Shown in pieces: positions 1,027 through 11,547 of a DNA stretch of 11,547 bases. Within the stretch, counting starts at the first letter, position 1, and each line of letters begins with the position of its first letter. This stretch comes from JAUXIQ01 sp030620925 [NCBI: Nitrospinota bacterium]. GTDB taxonomy: Bacteria; JAUXIQ01. A program made the position numbers and the translations under genes. The DNA lies in contig JAUXIQ010000025.1 of assembly GCA_030620925.1 (NCBI GenBank), positions 1 to 11,547 on the forward strand, read 5' to 3'. The notes below the pieces were generated by a model that made no database searches, was not told the DNA's origin, and worked only from the letters and a program-made list of their open reading frames with translations.

Positions 1027-1833
1027 TTGTCACGTTATTACATGCGTTCCTCGGAATACGGCACTGGATGTTCTCCTACCCCTATAGTCAAGAGGCTGCT
1101 GATAATCAACATCGTCGTATTCTTGGTCGCATCGGCCTTTCCTCGCTCGGTTTTATATCTTGGACTCCTACCTTTCGCCGTCACCCACGGGCACTGGTAC
1201 TGGCAGTTCCTCACCTATATGTTTATGCACGGCGGATTCATGCATATTCTCTTTAATATGTATGCGCTGTTACTGTTCGGAAGCCAGGTGGAGGGGGCGC
1301 TGGGCAGCAGGTCGTTCCTGCGCTTCTACCTGGTCACGGGAATAGGGGCTGGCATTATAACCTATCTTTTCGACATCGATGCCAGGATACCTACAGTGGG
1401 CGCATCCGGTGCGATTTTCGGAATACTGGTCGCCTATGGCATGATGTTCCCCAACAGGATCATTCTGGCCTTTTTCATAATCCCCATGAAGGCATGGCAG
1501 TTCGTCCTTTTCTTCGGTTTCATTGAACTCATGGCATCTATCTCCTCCGGCGGGACGGGCGGCGGCATCGCCCACAACGCGCACCTGGGCGGCCTGGGCA
1601 TCGGGTTTCTCTACATACGCTACGGCGAGAGGGTGAAATACTACTGGCGGGGCATAAGAAGGGGCTGGCAGGATTCACAGCGGCACCACGAGGCTCAGCG
1701 GGAAACGGAATCCCAGGATTATATACGCCGAGAGATAGACCCCATTCTGGATAAAATCTCGAAGTCCGGCATTCACAGCCTCACCCGCAAAGAAAAAAAG
1801 AAGCTCAAAGATGCCAGAGACCGCCTCCGCTGA
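1027..1833 (+). CDS. Rhomboid-family intramembrane serine protease
   Basis: This 268-residue membrane protein starts at TTG 1027, fixed by AAGGAGG ten bases upstream; the next ATG (1042) is too far from that site. Rhomboids cut transmembrane segments of other proteins within the lipid bilayer. The family signatures are all present: H68-x4-H73-x3-N77 in HGGFMHILFNM (transmembrane helix 2, oxyanion side), the nucleophile Ser127 in VGASGAIFG, and the catalytic His186 in HNAHLGG. About six hydrophobic segments can be seen between residues 22 and 197, matching the basic six-helix bacterial fold. After residue 200 comes a charged cytoplasmic tail of nearly 70 residues, rich in Arg, Lys and Glu and ending TRKEKKKLKDARDRLR. 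The tail is longer than in minimal rhomboids. The gene has its own promoter. Substrates are unknown. Confidence 0.93.
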   Translation: MSRYYMRSSEYGTGCSPTPIVKRLLIINIVVFLVASAFPRSVLYLGLLPFAVTHGHWYWQFLTYMFMHGGFMHILFNMYALLLFGSQVEGALGSRSFLRFYLVTGIGAGIITYLFDIDARIPTVGASGAIFGILVAYGMMFPNRIILAFFIIPMKAWQFVLFFGFIELMASISSGGTGGGIAHNAHLGGLGIGFLYIRYGERVKYYWRGIRRGWQDSQRHHEAQRETESQDYIRREIDPILDKISKSGIHSLTRKEKKKLKDARDRLR

Positions 1834-1936
1834 TTTTTTGTAGTTTTGAAACAACCCTTCCTGTTGGGTAGCTGCATCGATATCCCCGGTACCCATTTCC
1901 GCAGTACAGAAAAATCTCCCTCCGGGCAATCCCTTG

Positions 1937-1965
1937 TTGATTAGAGGACATTTCTGAAGTAAACT
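1937..1965 (+). promoter_or_regulatory. Possible promoter for the acyl-CoA dehydrogenase gene
   Basis: TTGATT (1937-1942), a 17-base spacer and TAAACT (1960-1965) give 4/6 matches at both boxes, with a leader of about 60 bases to the ATG at 2035. The 201-base gap holds no convincing terminator for the rhomboid gene. Read-through from that gene is therefore also possible. Confidence 0.3.
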
Positions 1966-2034
1966 CCCTCCGTATCAGCGGTCTGAAAACTGCTATTCTC
2001 AAATCCAAGGATCAGTATATTCAAGGGGGAAAAA

Positions 2035-3213
2035 ATGGACTTTCATCTCACCGAAGAACAGAAAAGGCTTAAAAAGACGGTGCGAGACCTGGCTGAGAGC
2101 GAGTTCAGAGACAAAGCGCACATCTGGGACCAGAACGATGAGTTCCCCCGTGAAAACGTCATGAAGCTCGCCGAAATGGGGCTGTTGGGGATCACCATAC
2201 CCAAGGAATACGGCGGGGGAGGGGGGACCATATTCGATGTGGTGCTGACCATCGAGGAGCTGGCTCGCGTCTGCCGGGCGACGTCCACCATTCTGGTCAC
2301 CCAGGTAGGAGACGCCGAAGCCATCAAGGAACACGGAAGCGATAACCTCAAAGAGAAATACCTGCCGGGCATGGCCAAAGGCGAGATTCTCTCCTGCATC
2401 ACCATCTCCGAGCCGCAGGCAGGCTCAGACGTTACCGCCATGTCCACCACCGCCGAGCTGGACGGCGATTCCTACGTCCTTAACGGCATCAAACACTTCA
2501 TCACCAACGGCGACGTGGCGGACCTCTACATGGTCTTCGTGCGCTACGGGAAGGAGTCCAGCGGCGCACACGGCATAGGCTCCATCCTGGTGGACGGCGG
2601 CACGCCGGGCCTCATCGTGGGCAAGAACGATATCATGATGGGAATCAGGGGCGCCGGCCACCCGGAGATAATCTTCGAGAACTGCCGTGTACCCAAGGAG
2701 AATGTTCTGGTGCAGGGTGATCCGTCAAACAACGAGGGGTTCAAAAAAATATTGGCCTCCTTCAATTCCGAGCGTTGTTTCAACTCCGCCAACTGCCTGG
2801 GCATCGCCCAGGGCGCATTCGACGAAGCCCTGAAATACTCCCAGGAGCGGGAGACCTTCGGCAAGAAGGTATCCGATTACCAGGGCATACAGTGGATGCT
2901 GGCGGATATGGCCATTAAGCTGGAAGCATCGAGATGGCTCCTCTATCGCGCCGCCGTCAACGGCTCAGAAGGGCATCCCGAGCTGCTGGAGGTCTCCATC
3001 GCCAAGACTTTCGCCAACGATATGTCCCTCGAGGTATGCAACGCCGCCATGCAGATTCACGGCGGCTACGGCTACTGCGTCGAGTTTCCACTTGAAAGAG
3101 CATGGAGAGACGCCAGGGCATATTCCTTCGGTGCGGGCACGCCGCAGATACAGCGCAACATGATCGCCCAGCAGCTACTCAGGGGAAAGCTGGATGTTAT
3201 AAGAAACAGATAA
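2035..3213 (+). CDS. Acyl-CoA dehydrogenase family flavoprotein
   Basis: This complete 392-residue protein has the usual family length. The ATG at 2035 follows an AAGGGGG ribosome binding site. It is a soluble FAD enzyme that oxidises acyl-CoA thioesters to 2-enoyl-CoA (or runs in reverse), passing electrons to an electron-transfer flavoprotein or to a fused complex. An N-terminal helical domain (about 1-115) is followed by the beta-domain signature ITISEPQAGSDVTAM (122-136) with FITNG (155-159), then the C-terminal helical domain with RETFGKKVSDYQ (272-283) and MQIHGGYGY (339-347). The catalytic glutamate of the medium/short-chain type, normally in a YEGT motif, is absent: the equivalent stretch is FGAGTPQIQR (A367). 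A glutamate, E246 in FNSERCF, sits where isovaleryl-CoA-type enzymes carry their base. Substrate cannot be assigned. No electron-transfer flavoprotein genes are adjacent. Confidence 0.92.
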   Translation: MDFHLTEEQKRLKKTVRDLAESEFRDKAHIWDQNDEFPRENVMKLAEMGLLGITIPKEYGGGGGTIFDVVLTIEELARVCRATSTILVTQVGDAEAIKEHGSDNLKEKYLPGMAKGEILSCITISEPQAGSDVTAMSTTAELDGDSYVLNGIKHFITNGDVADLYMVFVRYGKESSGAHGIGSILVDGGTPGLIVGKNDIMMGIRGAGHPEIIFENCRVPKENVLVQGDPSNNEGFKKILASFNSERCFNSANCLGIAQGAFDEALKYSQERETFGKKVSDYQGIQWMLADMAIKLEASRWLLYRAAVNGSEGHPELLEVSIAKTFANDMSLEVCNAAMQIHGGYGYCVEFPLERAWRDARAYSFGAGTPQIQRNMIAQQLLRGKLDVIRNR

Positions 3214-6414: not shown

Positions 6415-6909
6415 ATGGGAGCCAAAAAAATCTTCAGCGTGGACAGCCGGTTGTGCGTAGGGTGCAAGCAGTGCGAGTTGGTCTGCTCGCTGACCAAGAC
6501 GGGCACTTTCAACCCCCATAAAGCGCGCATACGCGTCACCAGGAACCAGGTTAAAGGGAATTATGTACCTGGTATCTGTTACCACTGCAAGCAGCCGAAG
6601 TGCCAGCAGGCGTGCCCTGAGGACGCCCTGAAGCGAGACATAGAAACCGGAGCGGTGGTGCTGAACGAGTCGCTGTGCTCGGGCTGCCGCGCCTGCGTGG
6701 TGGCATGTCCCTTCGGCGCCGTCCAGGTAGACCCCGACGGCAATATCCTCAAGTGCGACCTGTGCGGCGGAGACCCCACTTGCGTTAAATACTGCTCCGA
6801 GCGGCCGGAGAACAGCAGCCCGCTAATGGCTAACCCCGAGGGGGCCAAAGCGCTTCAATACGTGGAGCCCCACCAGGTAACATATACCAGGCGCTATGCC
6901 CAGCTCTAA
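6415..6909 (+). CDS. Multi-cluster 4Fe-4S ferredoxin subunit of the aldehyde oxidoreductase
   Basis: This 164-residue soluble iron-sulfur protein has an ATG at 6415 with AGGAG (6401-6405) nine bases ahead. Sixteen cysteines fall into four groups: C14/17/20/24, C55/58/63/67, C88/91/94/98 and C114/117/123/127. That is enough for four [4Fe-4S] clusters in the HycB/DmsB-like electron-transfer fold. It is encoded directly before an AOR gene, so its probable role is to carry electrons between the AOR tungsten/Fe-S site and ferredoxin or another acceptor, as known for the polyferredoxin subunits of multi-subunit AORs. No signal peptide or twin-arginine motif is present, so it is cytoplasmic. The C-terminal 30 residues (after about 134) lack cysteines and may contact the large subunit. 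Confidence 0.92.
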   Translation: MGAKKIFSVDSRLCVGCKQCELVCSLTKTGTFNPHKARIRVTRNQVKGNYVPGICYHCKQPKCQQACPEDALKRDIETGAVVLNESLCSGCRACVVACPFGAVQVDPDGNILKCDLCGGDPTCVKYCSERPENSSPLMANPEGAKALQYVEPHQVTYTRRYAQL

Positions 6910-7006: not shown

Positions 7007-8974
7007 ATGTACGGCTACGGCGAGATACTCAGGATAGACTTAAGCTCTGGAGACATAAGCACGGAGCCTATCCCTTCTCAGGTCATCCGCAAATATGTCG
7101 GTGGGGAGGGGATAAACGACTGGCTCCTGTGGCAGCATTTTACGAAGGTCGATCCTAAAATCGACCCTAAAGGGCCGGACAACGTGCTCATCGCCGGTCT
7201 AGGACCGCTGGGAGGCACCGCCACCGGTTTGGGCAGCAAGATGAAGTTCACCTTCAAGGGCCCGGCCTGGAACATGTTCGGGGACAGCGTTGCAGGAGGC
7301 ACTTTTGGTACGGCCATGCGTTATGCGGGCTACGACCACATAGTGGTAACCGGCCGGGCGGATAAACCCGTCTACATCTGGATCGATGACGACAAGGTGG
7401 AGATACGGGATGCTTCAGCCCACTGGGGTAAGGGAGTGAAGGAGGCCGTGAAGGGCATCCGCGACGAGCTTGGGGATACGGATATGTCGGTCGCCTGCAT
7501 AGGACAGGCCGGCGAAAACCTGGTCTCGTACGCTTCCGTGACAGTCACCGAAGAGCGCTCTGCGGGCCGCACGGGAGCGGGGTGCGTGTTCGGCTCCAAG
7601 AACCTGAAGGCCATCGCCGCCCGGGGCAGCAAGGGCATTTCGGTTTCCGATCCAAAAGGATATTTAGAAGCGACCGATGAGATATATCACCGCCTTAAAT
7701 CGGATCCCACTCACTGGGGTTTCAGGAAAAACGGCACGCTCGGGGTGGTGGGCTTTTACGACAGGATCGGCGGCAACGCTTACCGGAATAACCAGTTTTC
7801 CATGGTGCCACCGGAAAAGATCAAGGTAATGCTGGCCCGCTGGTTCGCCGATAACATGAAGACTCACGACTTTGCCTGCTCCACGGGCTGCACTATGGGC
7901 TGCTGCCAGATATGCGAAGTCAAGGGACATGAATCGCCCCTGGCAGAGCGTTACAAGGGTCTGACGGGCGAGGGCCCGGAATACTTTACGGTGGCCACCT
8001 TCGGGATGGGATGTGATATACCCGACTATGCGGCAATCACCCATTTTCACCATGCCTGCAACGACTACGGCATGGACCTTGGGGAGATAGGAGGCGCGGT
8101 GCCCTTCCTCATGGAGCTATGGGAGAGAGGCATAATTGATGAAGAGGACACCAAACGCTGGTGCGGCGAGCCCATCCGCTTCGAATGGGGTAACGTGGAG
8201 GCGGTGGAGAAGACCATTCAGTCAGTGGGCCTGCAAAATGATCGTCTGGGAGAGATACTGAAGGACGGTCTGGTCAAAGCGGCCCAGAATATCATGGAAG
8301 AGAAAGACGTGCCGGTGCAACAGTACGTAATCCACGGGAAGGGGGGCGCCACCTTCCACGAGGAGATAAGGTCTTTCCCCATCTGGGCCTTAAACTTCGC
8401 CGTGGCCAGCAGGGGTTGCGACCACCTCAAGGGCCTCAACATGATGGATAAGGGCTTTCGCAAGGATATCTCAAAGGCATGGTTCGGGAGCGAAAAGGCC
8501 GGAGAGGGATACACTCCTGATCTCAAGGGAAAAGCCGCGGCCCGGAGCGAGAACCACACCACGGCTATCAATATCACCGGTGTCTGCGTGTTCCGGACGG
8601 CGTTGAATCCGCTCAATATAGATTTGGATCTCATGGCTCGCGCCTATACCGCGCTCACAGGAATCGAGCTGAATGGGGAGGAACTTTACCTGGCCGGTGA
8701 GCGGACATATAATCTGGAAAAAGCTTTCAATTCGAGGTTGGGCCTCCGCCGCGAAGACGACACCCTCTGCGACCGCTGGATGAAGGAGCCCATCAAGGAA
8801 GGGCCGGGAAAGGGCATGAAGGCTGAGGATTGGTTCGATGATCTACTTGATGAGTATTACGAATACCACGGTTGGGATAAAAAGACCTCCCTTCAGACCC
8901 GAAAAAAGCTGGAGGCGCTGGATATGGTTGATGTCCTGGAAGTGCTGGAGAATGAAGGTGCCGCGACGGAGTAA
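7007..8974 (+). CDS. aor: Aldehyde:ferredoxin oxidoreductase family, tungsten-pterin catalytic subunit
   Basis: This complete 655-residue enzyme has a start supported by AAGGAG ahead of the ATG at 7007. The family oxidises aldehydes to carboxylic acids (or reduces acids) at a tungsten bis-pyranopterin centre next to one [4Fe-4S] cluster, in the cytoplasm. The order is an N-terminal pterin-binding domain (GEILRIDLSSG, residues 5-15; RKYVGGEGIN, 28-37; GAGCVFGSKNLKAIA, 190-204), then the domain-2 cluster motif C291-x3-C295-x3-C299 in FACSTGCTMGCC, a pterin motif NDYGMD (352-357), and ITGVCVF with the fourth cluster ligand Cys527. The tail GERTYNLEKAFN followed by REDDT is typical. Two features are unusual. 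The first cysteine spacing is C-x3-C instead of the classical C-x2-C, with additional cysteines at 300 and 303. Asn occupies both positions (352, 522) where the Pyrococcus enzyme has Asp. The specific substrate is unknown. Confidence 0.94.
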   Translation: MYGYGEILRIDLSSGDISTEPIPSQVIRKYVGGEGINDWLLWQHFTKVDPKIDPKGPDNVLIAGLGPLGGTATGLGSKMKFTFKGPAWNMFGDSVAGGTFGTAMRYAGYDHIVVTGRADKPVYIWIDDDKVEIRDASAHWGKGVKEAVKGIRDELGDTDMSVACIGQAGENLVSYASVTVTEERSAGRTGAGCVFGSKNLKAIAARGSKGISVSDPKGYLEATDEIYHRLKSDPTHWGFRKNGTLGVVGFYDRIGGNAYRNNQFSMVPPEKIKVMLARWFADNMKTHDFACSTGCTMGCCQICEVKGHESPLAERYKGLTGEGPEYFTVATFGMGCDIPDYAAITHFHHACNDYGMDLGEIGGAVPFLMELWERGIIDEEDTKRWCGEPIRFEWGNVEAVEKTIQSVGLQNDRLGEILKDGLVKAAQNIMEEKDVPVQQYVIHGKGGATFHEEIRSFPIWALNFAVASRGCDHLKGLNMMDKGFRKDISKAWFGSEKAGEGYTPDLKGKAAARSENHTTAINITGVCVFRTALNPLNIDLDLMARAYTALTGIELNGEELYLAGERTYNLEKAFNSRLGLRREDDTLCDRWMKEPIKEGPGKGMKAEDWFDDLLDEYYEYHGWDKKTSLQTRKKLEALDMVDVLEVLENEGAATE

Positions 8975-9031: not shown

Positions 9032-9304
9032 TTGGTAATCAAGGTAAGGTTCGAGGGGCCCATAAAAGACGCTGCGCGGTCCGAAGGGGAGGATATAAAA
9101 CTCGAGGGTACTAACGTAGGGCAGCTTATCGGCGCCCTTGCCGACAGGTACGGCCCTCGCTTCAAGGAATTCCTGATCGATGAGGAGACCGGGGGGTACA
9201 AAGAGGGGATACTAATACTCTCCGGAGGACGACGAATGGACCTCGACACGGAACTGGAAGAGGGGCAGGAACTGGTCTTCATCCCCGCCATAGCGGGCGG
9301 CTAA
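9032..9304 (+). CDS. MoaD/ThiS-family sulfur-carrier protein with C-terminal Gly-Gly
   Basis: This 90-residue ubiquitin-like protein starts at TTG 9032, six bases after AGGAGG (9020-9025). An ATG at 9027 is out of frame. It has the beta-grasp pattern: opening strand VIKVRFEGPIKD, a helix NVGQLIGALADRYG, a loop with FLIDEE, then ILILSGGRRMDL and LEEGQELVFIPAIAGG. The terminal Gly89-Gly90 is the site that is adenylated and turned into a thiocarboxylate, which then donates sulfur to precursor Z during molybdopterin/tungstopterin synthesis. It follows AOR by 57 bases in the same transcript, so it is likely dedicated to the AOR cofactor. The natural E1 partner is the rhodanese-MoeB fusion at 10142. 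Its stop overlaps the hpt stop by four bases. Confidence 0.9.
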   Translation: MVIKVRFEGPIKDAARSEGEDIKLEGTNVGQLIGALADRYGPRFKEFLIDEETGGYKEGILILSGGRRMDLDTELEEGQELVFIPAIAGG

Positions 9305-9828
9305 TCTTCTTCCTCCAGGTAGGCTATGTAGGGCAGCCCCCGATGTTTCTCGGCCATATCCAGGCCGTAACCCACCACAAATCGGTTCGGTATATCGAAG
9401 CCCACGTAATCAAGGTGCAGAGGGGTACTCCGGCGGGCCTGTTTGTTCAGCAGTACGCAGACCCTGATATCAAGAGGGTTTTCCTGGCGAAGATGGTTGG
9501 TGAGAAACTCTAAAGTGAGGCCCGTATCCGCCACGCAGTCAACGATCAGAACGTGTTTATCCCGCACCGAGCCTGAGGGTCCTGATGAGAAGCTTATCCG
9601 GCCCGAGGAGTCTGTTCCGTCACCGTAGCTGGATAGGCGCACGAAATCGCATTGGTGATCGATCTCCAGCAGGCGCATGATGTCGGCCATGAAGACCAAC
9701 GCCCCCTTGAGAACTCCCAGGAGCACTACTTCCTTTCCTCGATAGTCATCGGAAATGGAGGCCGCCAACTCCCTGACCCTGGCTCTGATAGTCTCTTCGT
9801 CCAGGAGGGGGACGATTTTCTGTTTCAT
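9301..9828 (-). CDS. hpt: Hypoxanthine phosphoribosyltransferase
   Basis: This 175-residue cytoplasmic purine-salvage enzyme converts hypoxanthine or guanine plus PRPP to IMP or GMP. The ATG at 9828 has AGGAAAG upstream. Motifs seen are LLGVLKGALVFMADI (PRPP-binding cis-peptide loop, Lys41-Gly42), the flexible loop LSSYGDGTDSSG (65-76), the PRPP signature VLIVDCVADTGLTL (93-106), LLNK (126-129) for purine binding, and the ending GFDIPNRFVVGYGLDMAEKHRGLPYI. In the PRPP signature the usual Glu-Asp pair is Asp97-Cys98, whereas the catalytic aspartate Asp101 and the TGxT are kept. Length and everything else are normal. The gene is convergent with the MoaD gene, sharing four bases at the stops, and splits the AOR cluster from the MoeB-like gene. 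Confidence 0.93.
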   Translation of the reverse strand: MKQKIVPLLDEETIRARVRELAASISDDYRGKEVVLLGVLKGALVFMADIMRLLEIDHQCDFVRLSSYGDGTDSSGRISFSSGPSGSVRDKHVLIVDCVADTGLTLEFLTNHLRQENPLDIRVCVLLNKQARRSTPLHLDYVGFDIPNRFVVGYGLDMAEKHRGLPYIAYLEEED

Positions 9829-10141: not shown

Positions 10142-11320
10142 ATGGGCAAGAGCTATCAGGAAATGCTTAAGGAGATTAAGGAGCAGATCAAAGAGGTCAC
10201 CATAGAGCAGGTGAACGAGATGCTCAACAACGGTGATCGGGTCGTCCTCCTCGACGTGCGCGAGAAGGACGAATGGCGTGAGGGCTATATAGAGGGGGCC
10301 GTAAACGTCACCCGCGGCATGCTGGAGATGCAGATAGAGCGGTCTCTCACCGATAAAGCCGCCAAAGTTATCTGCTACTGCGCGGGGGGCGTGCGCTCGG
10401 CTTTCACGGCCAAAGTCATGATGGAGTTGGGCTACGAGGACGTGTCTTCCATGGCCGGGGGTTTTAACGCCTGGAAACAGGCGCGTTACAATTTTGTAAA
10501 AGACAGGATGCTGAGTTCTGACCAGTTGAGCCGATACAGCCGCCACTTCATGCTTCCCCAGCTGGGAGAGAAGGGGCAGGGCAAGCTCCTGGACGCTAAG
10601 GTGATTATGGTGGGCGCAGGCGGACTCGGTTCCCCCGCGGGCCTGTACCTGGCCGCTGCGGGAGTTGGCACTATGGGTATTGTCGATTCCGACGTGGTGG
10701 ACGTCACTAACCTTCAGCGGCAGGTGCTGCATAAGACGGCCGACGTGGGCAGGCCCAAGACGGAATCGGCCAAAGAGACCATCAACGCCATCAATCCCGA
10801 CGTCGAAGTAATCACCTATCAGGAGAAGCTCACATCCGAAAACGTAATGGACATCATTGAGGACTACGACGTGGTGGTTGACGGATGCGACAACTTCCCC
10901 ACCCGTTATCTGGTAAACGACGCCTGCGTCCTGGCCGGCAAACCCAACGTCCACGGCAGTATTTTCCAATTCGAGGGTCAGGCCACAGTGCTGTCGTCAG
11001 GCGAGGGACCCTGTTACCGCTGCCTCTATCCTGAGCCGCCTCCTCCGGGCATGGTCCCCAGCTGACAGGATGCCGGAGTGCTGGGGGTCTTACCCGGCAT
11101 AGTGGGCCTCATACAGGCTACCGAGGCGGTCAAACTCATCCTGGGCGTGGGGAACACGCTGGTGGGCAGGCTCCTGCTGTATGATGCCCTGGACATGAAG
11201 TTCAGAGAAGTTCGTTTAAAGAAGGACGATGGGTGCCCCATCTGCGGCGTAAGCCCCACCATAACTCACCTGATCGACTATGATGAATTCTGCGGCTTGA
11301 GCGTAAGCCAGACCACTTGA
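10142..11320 (+). CDS. moeB: Probable selenoprotein: N-terminal rhodanese fused to MoeB/ThiF-type E1 enzyme, Sec308 at in-frame TGA
   Basis: Read conventionally, the gene stops at TGA 11063-11065 after 307 residues. Read through, it gives 392 residues. The rhodanese domain (about 18-115) has DVREKDEW (38-45) and the persulfide loop CAGGVRSAF with Cys80. The E1 adenylation domain follows: ATP loop GAGGLGSPAG (158-167), DVTNLQRQ (187-194), DGCDNFPTR (247-255) and zinc pair C291-x2-C294. The TGA falls in MVPS-U-QDAGVLGVLPGIVG, exactly where MoeB/ThiF proteins carry a conserved Cys (E. coli MoeB Cys187; ThiF Cys184 forms the carrier conjugate). Downstream homology is intact: LIQATEAVKLILG, LLLYDALDM and the second zinc pair C365-x2-C368. 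A SECIS-like hairpin follows the TGA. It should activate the MoaD-like carrier at 9032. The alternative explanation is a nonsense mutation or sequencing error of a Cys codon. Confidence 0.87.
11063..11100 (+). promoter_or_regulatory. UGA selenocysteine codon and predicted bacterial SECIS hairpin
   Basis: The TGA (11063-11065, followed by C as in E. coli fdhF) is followed by a perfect 7-pair stem ATGCCGG (11070-11076) / CCGGCAT (11094-11100). Above it is a bulged A (11077), then three more pairs (11078-11080 with 11091-11093, the last G-T), and an apical loop CTGGGGGTCT (11081-11090). The loop ends in GGTCT, as I recall for the fdhF SECIS loop. It lies at 24-28 bases from the U of UGA, against about 22-26 in fdhF. 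This is the layout read by SelB, which delivers Sec-tRNA. It was folded by hand, not by computation. Confidence 0.82.
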
Positions 11321-11404: not shown

Positions 11405-11547
11405 ATGATAAAGCGGGTATTCGCATTCAAGTATGCGGAGGGGCAACCGGTGGACGAGATGGAGGATTGGTACCTGGATCAGCACACCCAGCTTGCCAAG
11501 AAGATGCCGGGCATAGTGCGCTACGTTACCTACAAGGCTATCCCCCA
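11405..11547 (+). CDS. EthD-like small protein, 3' end cut off by window edge
   Basis: Forty-seven codons are visible from the ATG at 11405, preceded by an AAGGGGG ribosome binding site. The sequence MIKRVFAFKY, then the EMEDWYLDQHTQLAKK stretch and MPGIVRYVTYK, follows the ferredoxin-like (dimeric alpha/beta barrel) pattern of the EthD family: an N-terminal strand, a helix with a conserved W-Y-x3-H, and a PG-x2-R-Y strand. Such proteins are about 100-200 residues long. Some support ring-degradation or polyketide steps, but most have no known function. It starts just 21 bases after the terminator T tract, leaving no room for a standard promoter between them. It is therefore probably transcribed by partial read-through or from a promoter inside the upstream region. 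Confidence 0.75.
   Translation, partial: MIKRVFAFKYAEGQPVDEMEDWYLDQHTQLAKKMPGIVRYVTYKAIP

Follow-up and report, generated by a model that had tools for sequence, protein, structure and literature searches.

An in-frame TGA at the conserved cysteine site of a rhodanese–MoeB/ThiF fusion gene predicts a selenocysteine enzyme with probable double-selenocysteine relatives

The in-frame TGA at codon 308 of a rhodanese–MoeB/ThiF fusion gene from a Nitrospinota bacterium (JAUXIQ01 sp030620925) almost certainly encodes selenocysteine (Sec). That the gene product is a full-length selenocysteine rhodanese–E1-like enzyme, with the TGA decoded by SelB and tRNA-Sec, is strongly supported, the selenium itself being predicted from sequence. 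The gene lies in the window, by which is meant the whole stretch of 11,547 nucleotides analysed. A selenocysteine MoeB/ThiF-type enzyme had been proposed in a first-pass annotation of this DNA, and the proposal is borne out by the pairing of TGA with Cys codons across phyla, by sel genes including a TGA-containing selD in the same genome, by purifying selection after the TGA and by synonymous constraint on a hairpin that follows it. Direct observations are the distribution of the Sec codon, the presence of sel genes and the homology of the sites. The features of the window are as follows.

6415-6906, plus strand: ferredoxin-type 4Fe-4S protein, a possible partner of the aldehyde:ferredoxin oxidoreductase (Pfam Fer4 families)
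7007-8971, plus strand: aldehyde:ferredoxin oxidoreductase (AOR) gene, the upstream context of the fusion (Pfam AFOR_N, AFOR_C)
9032-9301, plus strand: ThiS/MoaD-like carrier with C-terminal AIAGG, a Gly-Gly end (Pfam ThiS and translation)
9301-9828, minus strand: HPRT-like phosphoribosyltransferase gene between the carrier and the fusion
10142-11317, plus strand: rhodanese–MoeB/ThiF fusion of 392 residues with U308 (translation, Pfam, NF006444)
10379-10381, plus strand: codon 80, TGC, rhodanese active-site Cys (CAGGVRS); TGA in four relatives and GAC in five
11063-11065, plus strand: in-frame TGA, codon 308, at the crossover-loop Cys position (codon counts in 109 fusions; MoeB/ThiF/Uba4 alignment)
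11066-11112, plus strand: SECIS-like hairpin with an 8-bp upper stem, the 7-nt loop GGUCUUA and GU at +22/+23 after the TGA (RNA folding)

Aldehyde:ferredoxin oxidoreductases are a family of tungsten enzymes. At 11405-11547 an open reading frame begins that runs off the window end (MIKRVFAFKYAEGQ...), which we take to be EthD-like.

With TGA translated as U, codon 308 is in frame with the ATG at 10142, and 84 residues follow U308 before the next TGA, the terminal stop at 11318-11320. Pfam places the rhodanese domain N-terminally at residues 21-113 and the ThiF domain at 132-366, and of the two zinc pairs, CYRC (291-294) and CPIC, the latter lies downstream of the TGA. The NCBIfam model NF006444, scored with U308 entered as C, gave 566.3 bits against a cut-off of 449 over residues 5-386 (model positions 3-385 of 387), and the homology therefore continues past the TGA. 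The earlier reading of the frame as 84 codons of family sequence carrying the second zinc CxxC is thus upheld. The same is true of the placement of the UGA at the conserved E1 cysteine, as the conserved Cys of MoeB, ThiF and Uba4 chains from solved structures falls at codon 308 in the alignment and homologues have TGC or TGT there.

Relatives were collected by a scan with peptide patterns that exclude the site, in which 296 of 315 candidate stretches encoded a relative and the best 80 were kept, and by genome searches, which gave a match in 50 of 59 genomes at 1e-3. For the Planctomycetota phylum to which genome G080 belongs, 96 of 246 genomes gave matches (1e-90), and for that of genome G064, 23 of 247 (1e-110), at most 30 loci from each genome search being taken further. 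The 161 loci matching at 1e-50 comprised 117 N-terminal rhodanese fusions covering the site, 43 loci without that domain and one excluded locus (L099), which has TGC at 308 and a sequence that ends early; removal of eight duplicates of the same genes left 109 distinct fusion genes. At codon 308 these carry TGC in 62 cases, TGA in 35 and TGT in 12, a regularity far beyond chance and the UGA/Cys pairing among relatives that the first-pass annotation had proposed looking for. The only in-frame stops over the 40,662 codons of the 109 fusions, read to residue 375, were the TGA at 308 in 35 genes and a TGA at residue 80 in four. TGA at 308 is confined to fusions with an N-terminal rhodanese (35/109, vs 0/43 records without that domain, which have TGT in 22, TGC in 16 and another codon in five), and TAA or TAG was found at this codon in neither group. 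The 43 records are 42 distinct ones, six of them with a rhodanese-like match just downstream, and the count covers the loci that were read, further matches listed with stops, for example in G200, G255 and G304, falling outside it. One match without an N-terminal rhodanese that was listed with a TGA (contig C37 of genome G162) was considered as a counter-example and rejected, its codon 308 being TGC and its aligned stretch free of stops.

That a sequencing or assembly error hides a genuine TGC or TGT is hardly credible: a single-base difference would suffice, but the same base recurs in 35 of 109 distinct genes with TAA or TAG in none, and the TGA genes have a common synonymous signature at codons 313-314. 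On this recurrence and this signature the error was rejected.

Beyond the TGA, dN/dS of residues 309-372 in close pairs of TGA genes was 0.035 for L067/L071, 0.105 for L089/L090, 0.096 for L165/L166 and 0.143 for L140/L143, and values after the TGA ranged from 0.035 to 0.589 across the 25 printed pairs. The stretch after the TGA evolves under purifying selection in closely related TGA pairs. Decay after the site in relatives, which would speak against a Sec codon, is excluded by the low dN/dS and by the lack of stops other than the TGA at residue 80. That translation really ends at the TGA, or that the gene is decaying, with the remainder a pseudogene or an independent short protein, could be suspected in a source genome assembled in 445 contigs (2.5 Mb, 89.5% complete), but is very improbable given the same TGA in 34 other distinct fusions with no further stops except that at residue 80, the low dN/dS past the TGA in close pairs and the presence of sel genes, and was rejected on these grounds.

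The search of the source genome for selA, selB, selC and selD, also proposed in the first-pass annotation, found each above its cut-off (selA 611 bits, selB 415.5 bits, tRNA-Sec 78.3 bits), so that a lack of selB or selC is excluded. A second tRNA-Sec match, at 47.4 bits, is barely above the cut-off of 47. Two selD genes also scored above the cut-off, and in both the active-site motif GxG*ACK contains a single in-frame TGA (GGG*ACK and GAG*ACK). These selD genes, L182 and L183 on contigs C134 and C51, differ in sequence, either as paralogues or because the bin mixes two strains. On contig C342 of the same genome (G000), a short rhodanese-like match at positions 1830-2138 (minus strand) contains two in-frame TGA codons and is possibly another selenoprotein. 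Among the hosts of 23 other TGA loci, selB was above cut-off for 19, that is in 18 of 22 distinct genomes since L020 and L080 belong to one genome, the search having been confined to TGA genes other than those first found in the Planctomycetota, G064-phylum and L101-class searches. For the four that failed, G073 and G084 have fragments reaching the model end, and in G072 and G083 the matches are confined to the first part of the model. Such matches to the first part of the selB model are also given by other GTPases. In Cys-type hosts selB was above cut-off in 12 of 19. A genome-wide reassignment of TGA to another amino acid, as in a Trp or Gly code, had nothing found in its favour, is contradicted by the TGA at 11318 with which the fusion itself terminates, and was rejected; with Cys at the site in all 74 non-TGA fusions and with selA, selB, tRNA-Sec and selD present, its probability is close to nil.

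The energy of the hairpin downstream of the TGA is weak: over 44, 53 and 81 nt, z is −1.81, −1.72 and +0.29, and 12, 10 and 117 of 200 shuffles, respectively, do as well. An Rfam search for SECIS gave no match, its lone hit (E 6.4) being unrelated. The loop GU is present in 23/23 Sec and 45/46 Cys genes, and conservation of the peptide GVLGVLPG gives the Cys homologues a comparable hairpin. Despite the weak energy the contrast between the Sec and Cys groups is informative, all of the following p values ignoring kinship. Sec genes form 15.1 of 20 hairpin pairs vs 13.5 in Cys genes (p = 3e-4), and the synonymous-shuffle z is −0.80 in 35 Sec vs −0.13 in 74 Cys genes (p = 0.003). CTG at codon 314 occurs in 34/35 Sec vs 27/74 Cys genes (p = 2e-10) and GTC at codon 313 in 27/35 vs 12/74 (p = 9e-10); the window gene itself has GTG-CTG at codons 313-314.

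In a tree of 70 fusions the distribution of Sec308 and Cys308 needs at least two changes, the direction of change not being fixed by the tree. A Cys clade of nine is nested in the Sec region, where support is weak (88/72), and this clade has CTG in 3/9 and GTC in 0/9, that is, without the codon preference of the Sec genes.

A second TGA, at residue 80 of the rhodanese domain, is present in four of the 109 fusions, L053 (the same as L160) and the Planctomycetota genes L096, L101 and L107, and all four also have TGA at 308. Sec80 requires two changes on the 70-fusion tree, one in L053 and one in the three Planctomycetota. In the class of L101, 8 of 23 genomes carry the fusion (1e-125), all eight with TGA308, and residue 80 is TGA in three, GAC (Asp) in five and Cys in none; the five that combine Asp80 with TGA308, namely L105, L108, L140, L143 and L186, thus come from the same class as the three double-TGA genes. 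The class of L053 is represented by a single genome among those compared. Hairpin energy over 48 nt at the residue-80 TGA gave no signal in any of the four genes. For codons 85-93, a stretch picked after inspection, the three Planctomycetota had z values of −2.0, −2.1 and −1.5 and L160 one of −0.3, vs a mean of +0.1 in 100 Cys80 genes; the fraction of synonymous shuffles that equalled the hairpin was 0.003, 0.013 and 0.09 in the Planctomycetota genes and 0.35 in L160. There is little to indicate a SECIS at residue 80, and the four fusions are probable double selenoproteins with Sec at 80 and 308. We lean slightly towards the view that such relatives perform an intramolecular sulfur relay between two selenocysteines, with Sec80 as the persulfide-type donor and Sec308 holding the selenoester. 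On this double-Sec reading the same line has a single-Sec form, represented by the window protein.

Selenocysteine-containing MoeB is already known, and the mention of such proteins from metagenomic surveys in the first-pass annotation was correct: 11 sequences were reported from the Sargasso Sea in 2005 (PMC1088965) and 19 from the GOS data in 2008 (PMC2398784), and Sec-MoeB is listed in reviews of 2022 (PMC9312934) and 2026 (PMC13188914), the latter giving one Sec per MoeB protein. Like these, as far as the available parts of the papers describe them, the window protein is a MoeB/ThiF homologue (Pfam ThiF) with Sec aligned to the conserved Cys, its in-frame UGA being paired with Cys codons in homologues, and SECIS-like stem-loops were likewise reported downstream; the Sec site is likely the same as in the published sequences. 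Unlike the window protein, no rhodanese fusion of MoeB is mentioned in the available text of these surveys and reviews. The NF006444/PRK08762 MoeB model matches the window protein nearly full length, the rhodanese part included and above the curated cut-off, but 74 of the 109 collected fusions carry Cys at 308 where the window protein carries Sec. Uba4/MOCS3 also combines an adenylation domain, a crossover-loop Cys at the site of U308 and a rhodanese in the same chain; there the rhodanese is C-terminal and the site is Cys, whereas in the window protein the rhodanese is N-terminal and the site is Sec.

A tie of the enzyme to an AOR cluster had been put forward as perhaps new, and this stands only in part. 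In the window the AOR gene is indeed close by, and proximity of AOR and fusion is specific to the window among the 117 fusion loci compared. AOR was found beside 0 of 117 fusion loci (BLASTP of the window neighbours, E 1e-6, against flanking ORFs of at least 80 residues), which is a weak negative because flanks of no more than about 1.5 kb are common in the set and the locus record of the window itself also ends short of AOR. With none of the 117 loci showing it, many with short flanks, AOR as a general feature of the fusion was rejected. AOR–MoaD–MoeB–ferredoxin neighbourhoods, as well as E1–rhodanese–JAB–cysteine synthase neighbourhoods, were already described in 2006 (Iyer 2006, PMC1779556). 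As in the part of that account available, AOR, ferredoxin, a MoaD-like carrier and an E1 lie near one another in the window, but here the E1 is a Sec rhodanese fusion, parted from the carrier by the HPRT-like gene on the opposite strand. Known, then, as far as the available text of these sources goes, are Sec-MoeB and the AOR–MoaD–MoeB clusters. Our search of open-licence papers, in such text as was available, returned no description of a Sec rhodanese–MoeB fusion or a double-Sec form; nor were the restriction of TGA to N-terminal rhodanese fusions, the four double-TGA relatives in two lineages and the five Asp80 Planctomycetota found in print there. It is the double-Sec relatives that may be new.

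By analogy with Uba4, the ThiF/MoeB domain would adenylate a ThiS/MoaD carrier, probably that encoded at 9032-9301, at its Gly-Gly end. The crossover-loop residue Sec308 would then attack the acyl-adenylate and hold the carrier as a reactive selenoester. A persulfide on the rhodanese Cys80 would displace the carrier from Sec308, and the released carrier thiocarboxylate could supply the sulfur for the pterin cofactor, with tungsten or molybdenum, of the neighbouring AOR. This cycle as a whole we regard as reasonably likely; its selenoester, the identity of the carrier and the cofactor role are what we infer. The Uba4 residue aligned with U308 is the Cys of TSCGEAG in the C. thermophilum protein, where chain and residue numbers are offset and which we take to be Cys202. 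In Uba4, Urm1 becomes bound as a thioester to Cys202, a crossover-loop residue, until the rhodanese persulfide displaces it (PMC7527816, in the part available). The first-pass annotation had assumed a covalent link of the ThiF cysteine with its carrier, and this chemistry is less settled than claimed: Uba4 forms a thioester, but a 2026 review (PMC12954526), in its available text, states that MoeB and ThiF make no such bond with their carriers and describes even the Uba4 thioester as helpful, not essential. Since that review denies the MoeB/ThiF thioester and calls that of Uba4 non-essential, Sec308 may have another role.

A tentative alternative, which we hold to be rather unlikely, is accordingly that Sec308 is real but forms no acyl link in the cycle and instead protects or regulates, for example by redox switching or by blocking self-conjugation with the thiocarboxylated product. 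The equivalent Uba4 cysteine also guards against self-conjugation (PMC7527816), and thiocarboxylation can proceed without a thioester, which MoeB and ThiF reportedly do not form (PMC12954526), but a 2018 yeast study is cited in the available text of both sources for the thioester as the key intermediate, and the rhodanese and E1 domain set of the window protein is closer to Uba4 than to MoeB alone. The selenoester is favoured over a protective role because this domain set matches that of Uba4, in reversed order. In the five Sec308 relatives with Asp at the rhodanese site the persulfide step is impossible as stated.

The pairing with the carrier has one point against it, the HPRT-like gene on the other strand that parts it from the fusion. 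A Cys paralogue (L185, contig C357) in the source genome is 69% identical over residues 124-388, is without the N-terminal rhodanese, and has as neighbours a ThiS-like carrier of its own, a PALP enzyme, cysteine synthase-like in our reading, and two DsrE-family genes. Since this paralogue sits with its own carrier, the AOR-side carrier at 9032-9301 is the likely partner and substrate of the Sec enzyme. Elsewhere, a ThiS-domain protein cluster with a ThiS–NIL fusion as representative lies within 2.5 kb of 12 of the 117 fusion loci (6 TGA, 6 Cys), and JAB proteins lie within 2.5 kb of 12 (7 TGA, 5 Cys); the enzyme type is therefore not confined to pterin cofactors. Beside the Sec fusions of L165, L166, L167, L172 and L174 a ThiS-type carrier occurs together with a JAB protein and a PALP enzyme, presumably threonine synthase-like, the carrier being of ThiS–NIL type in L166, the one scanned. 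These neighbourhoods suggest thiocarboxylate-dependent amino acid synthesis. A search of open-licence papers tying together thiocarboxylate, JAMM, sulfur carrier protein and homocysteine found nothing.

Where annotation takes the TGA for a stop, these enzymes would appear truncated at residue 307. The catalytic role of the conserved Cys in MoeB/ThiF-type enzymes is unsettled, with a thioester in Uba4 and reportedly none in MoeB or ThiF, and natural Sec versions offer a direct handle on that Cys because Sec is costly and unlikely to be retained where the residue is dispensable. This chemistry could be tested on a series that nature provides: fusions of shared architecture with either Sec or Cys, the Cys paralogue that the source genome also carries, the double-Sec forms and the relatives that combine Sec with Asp.
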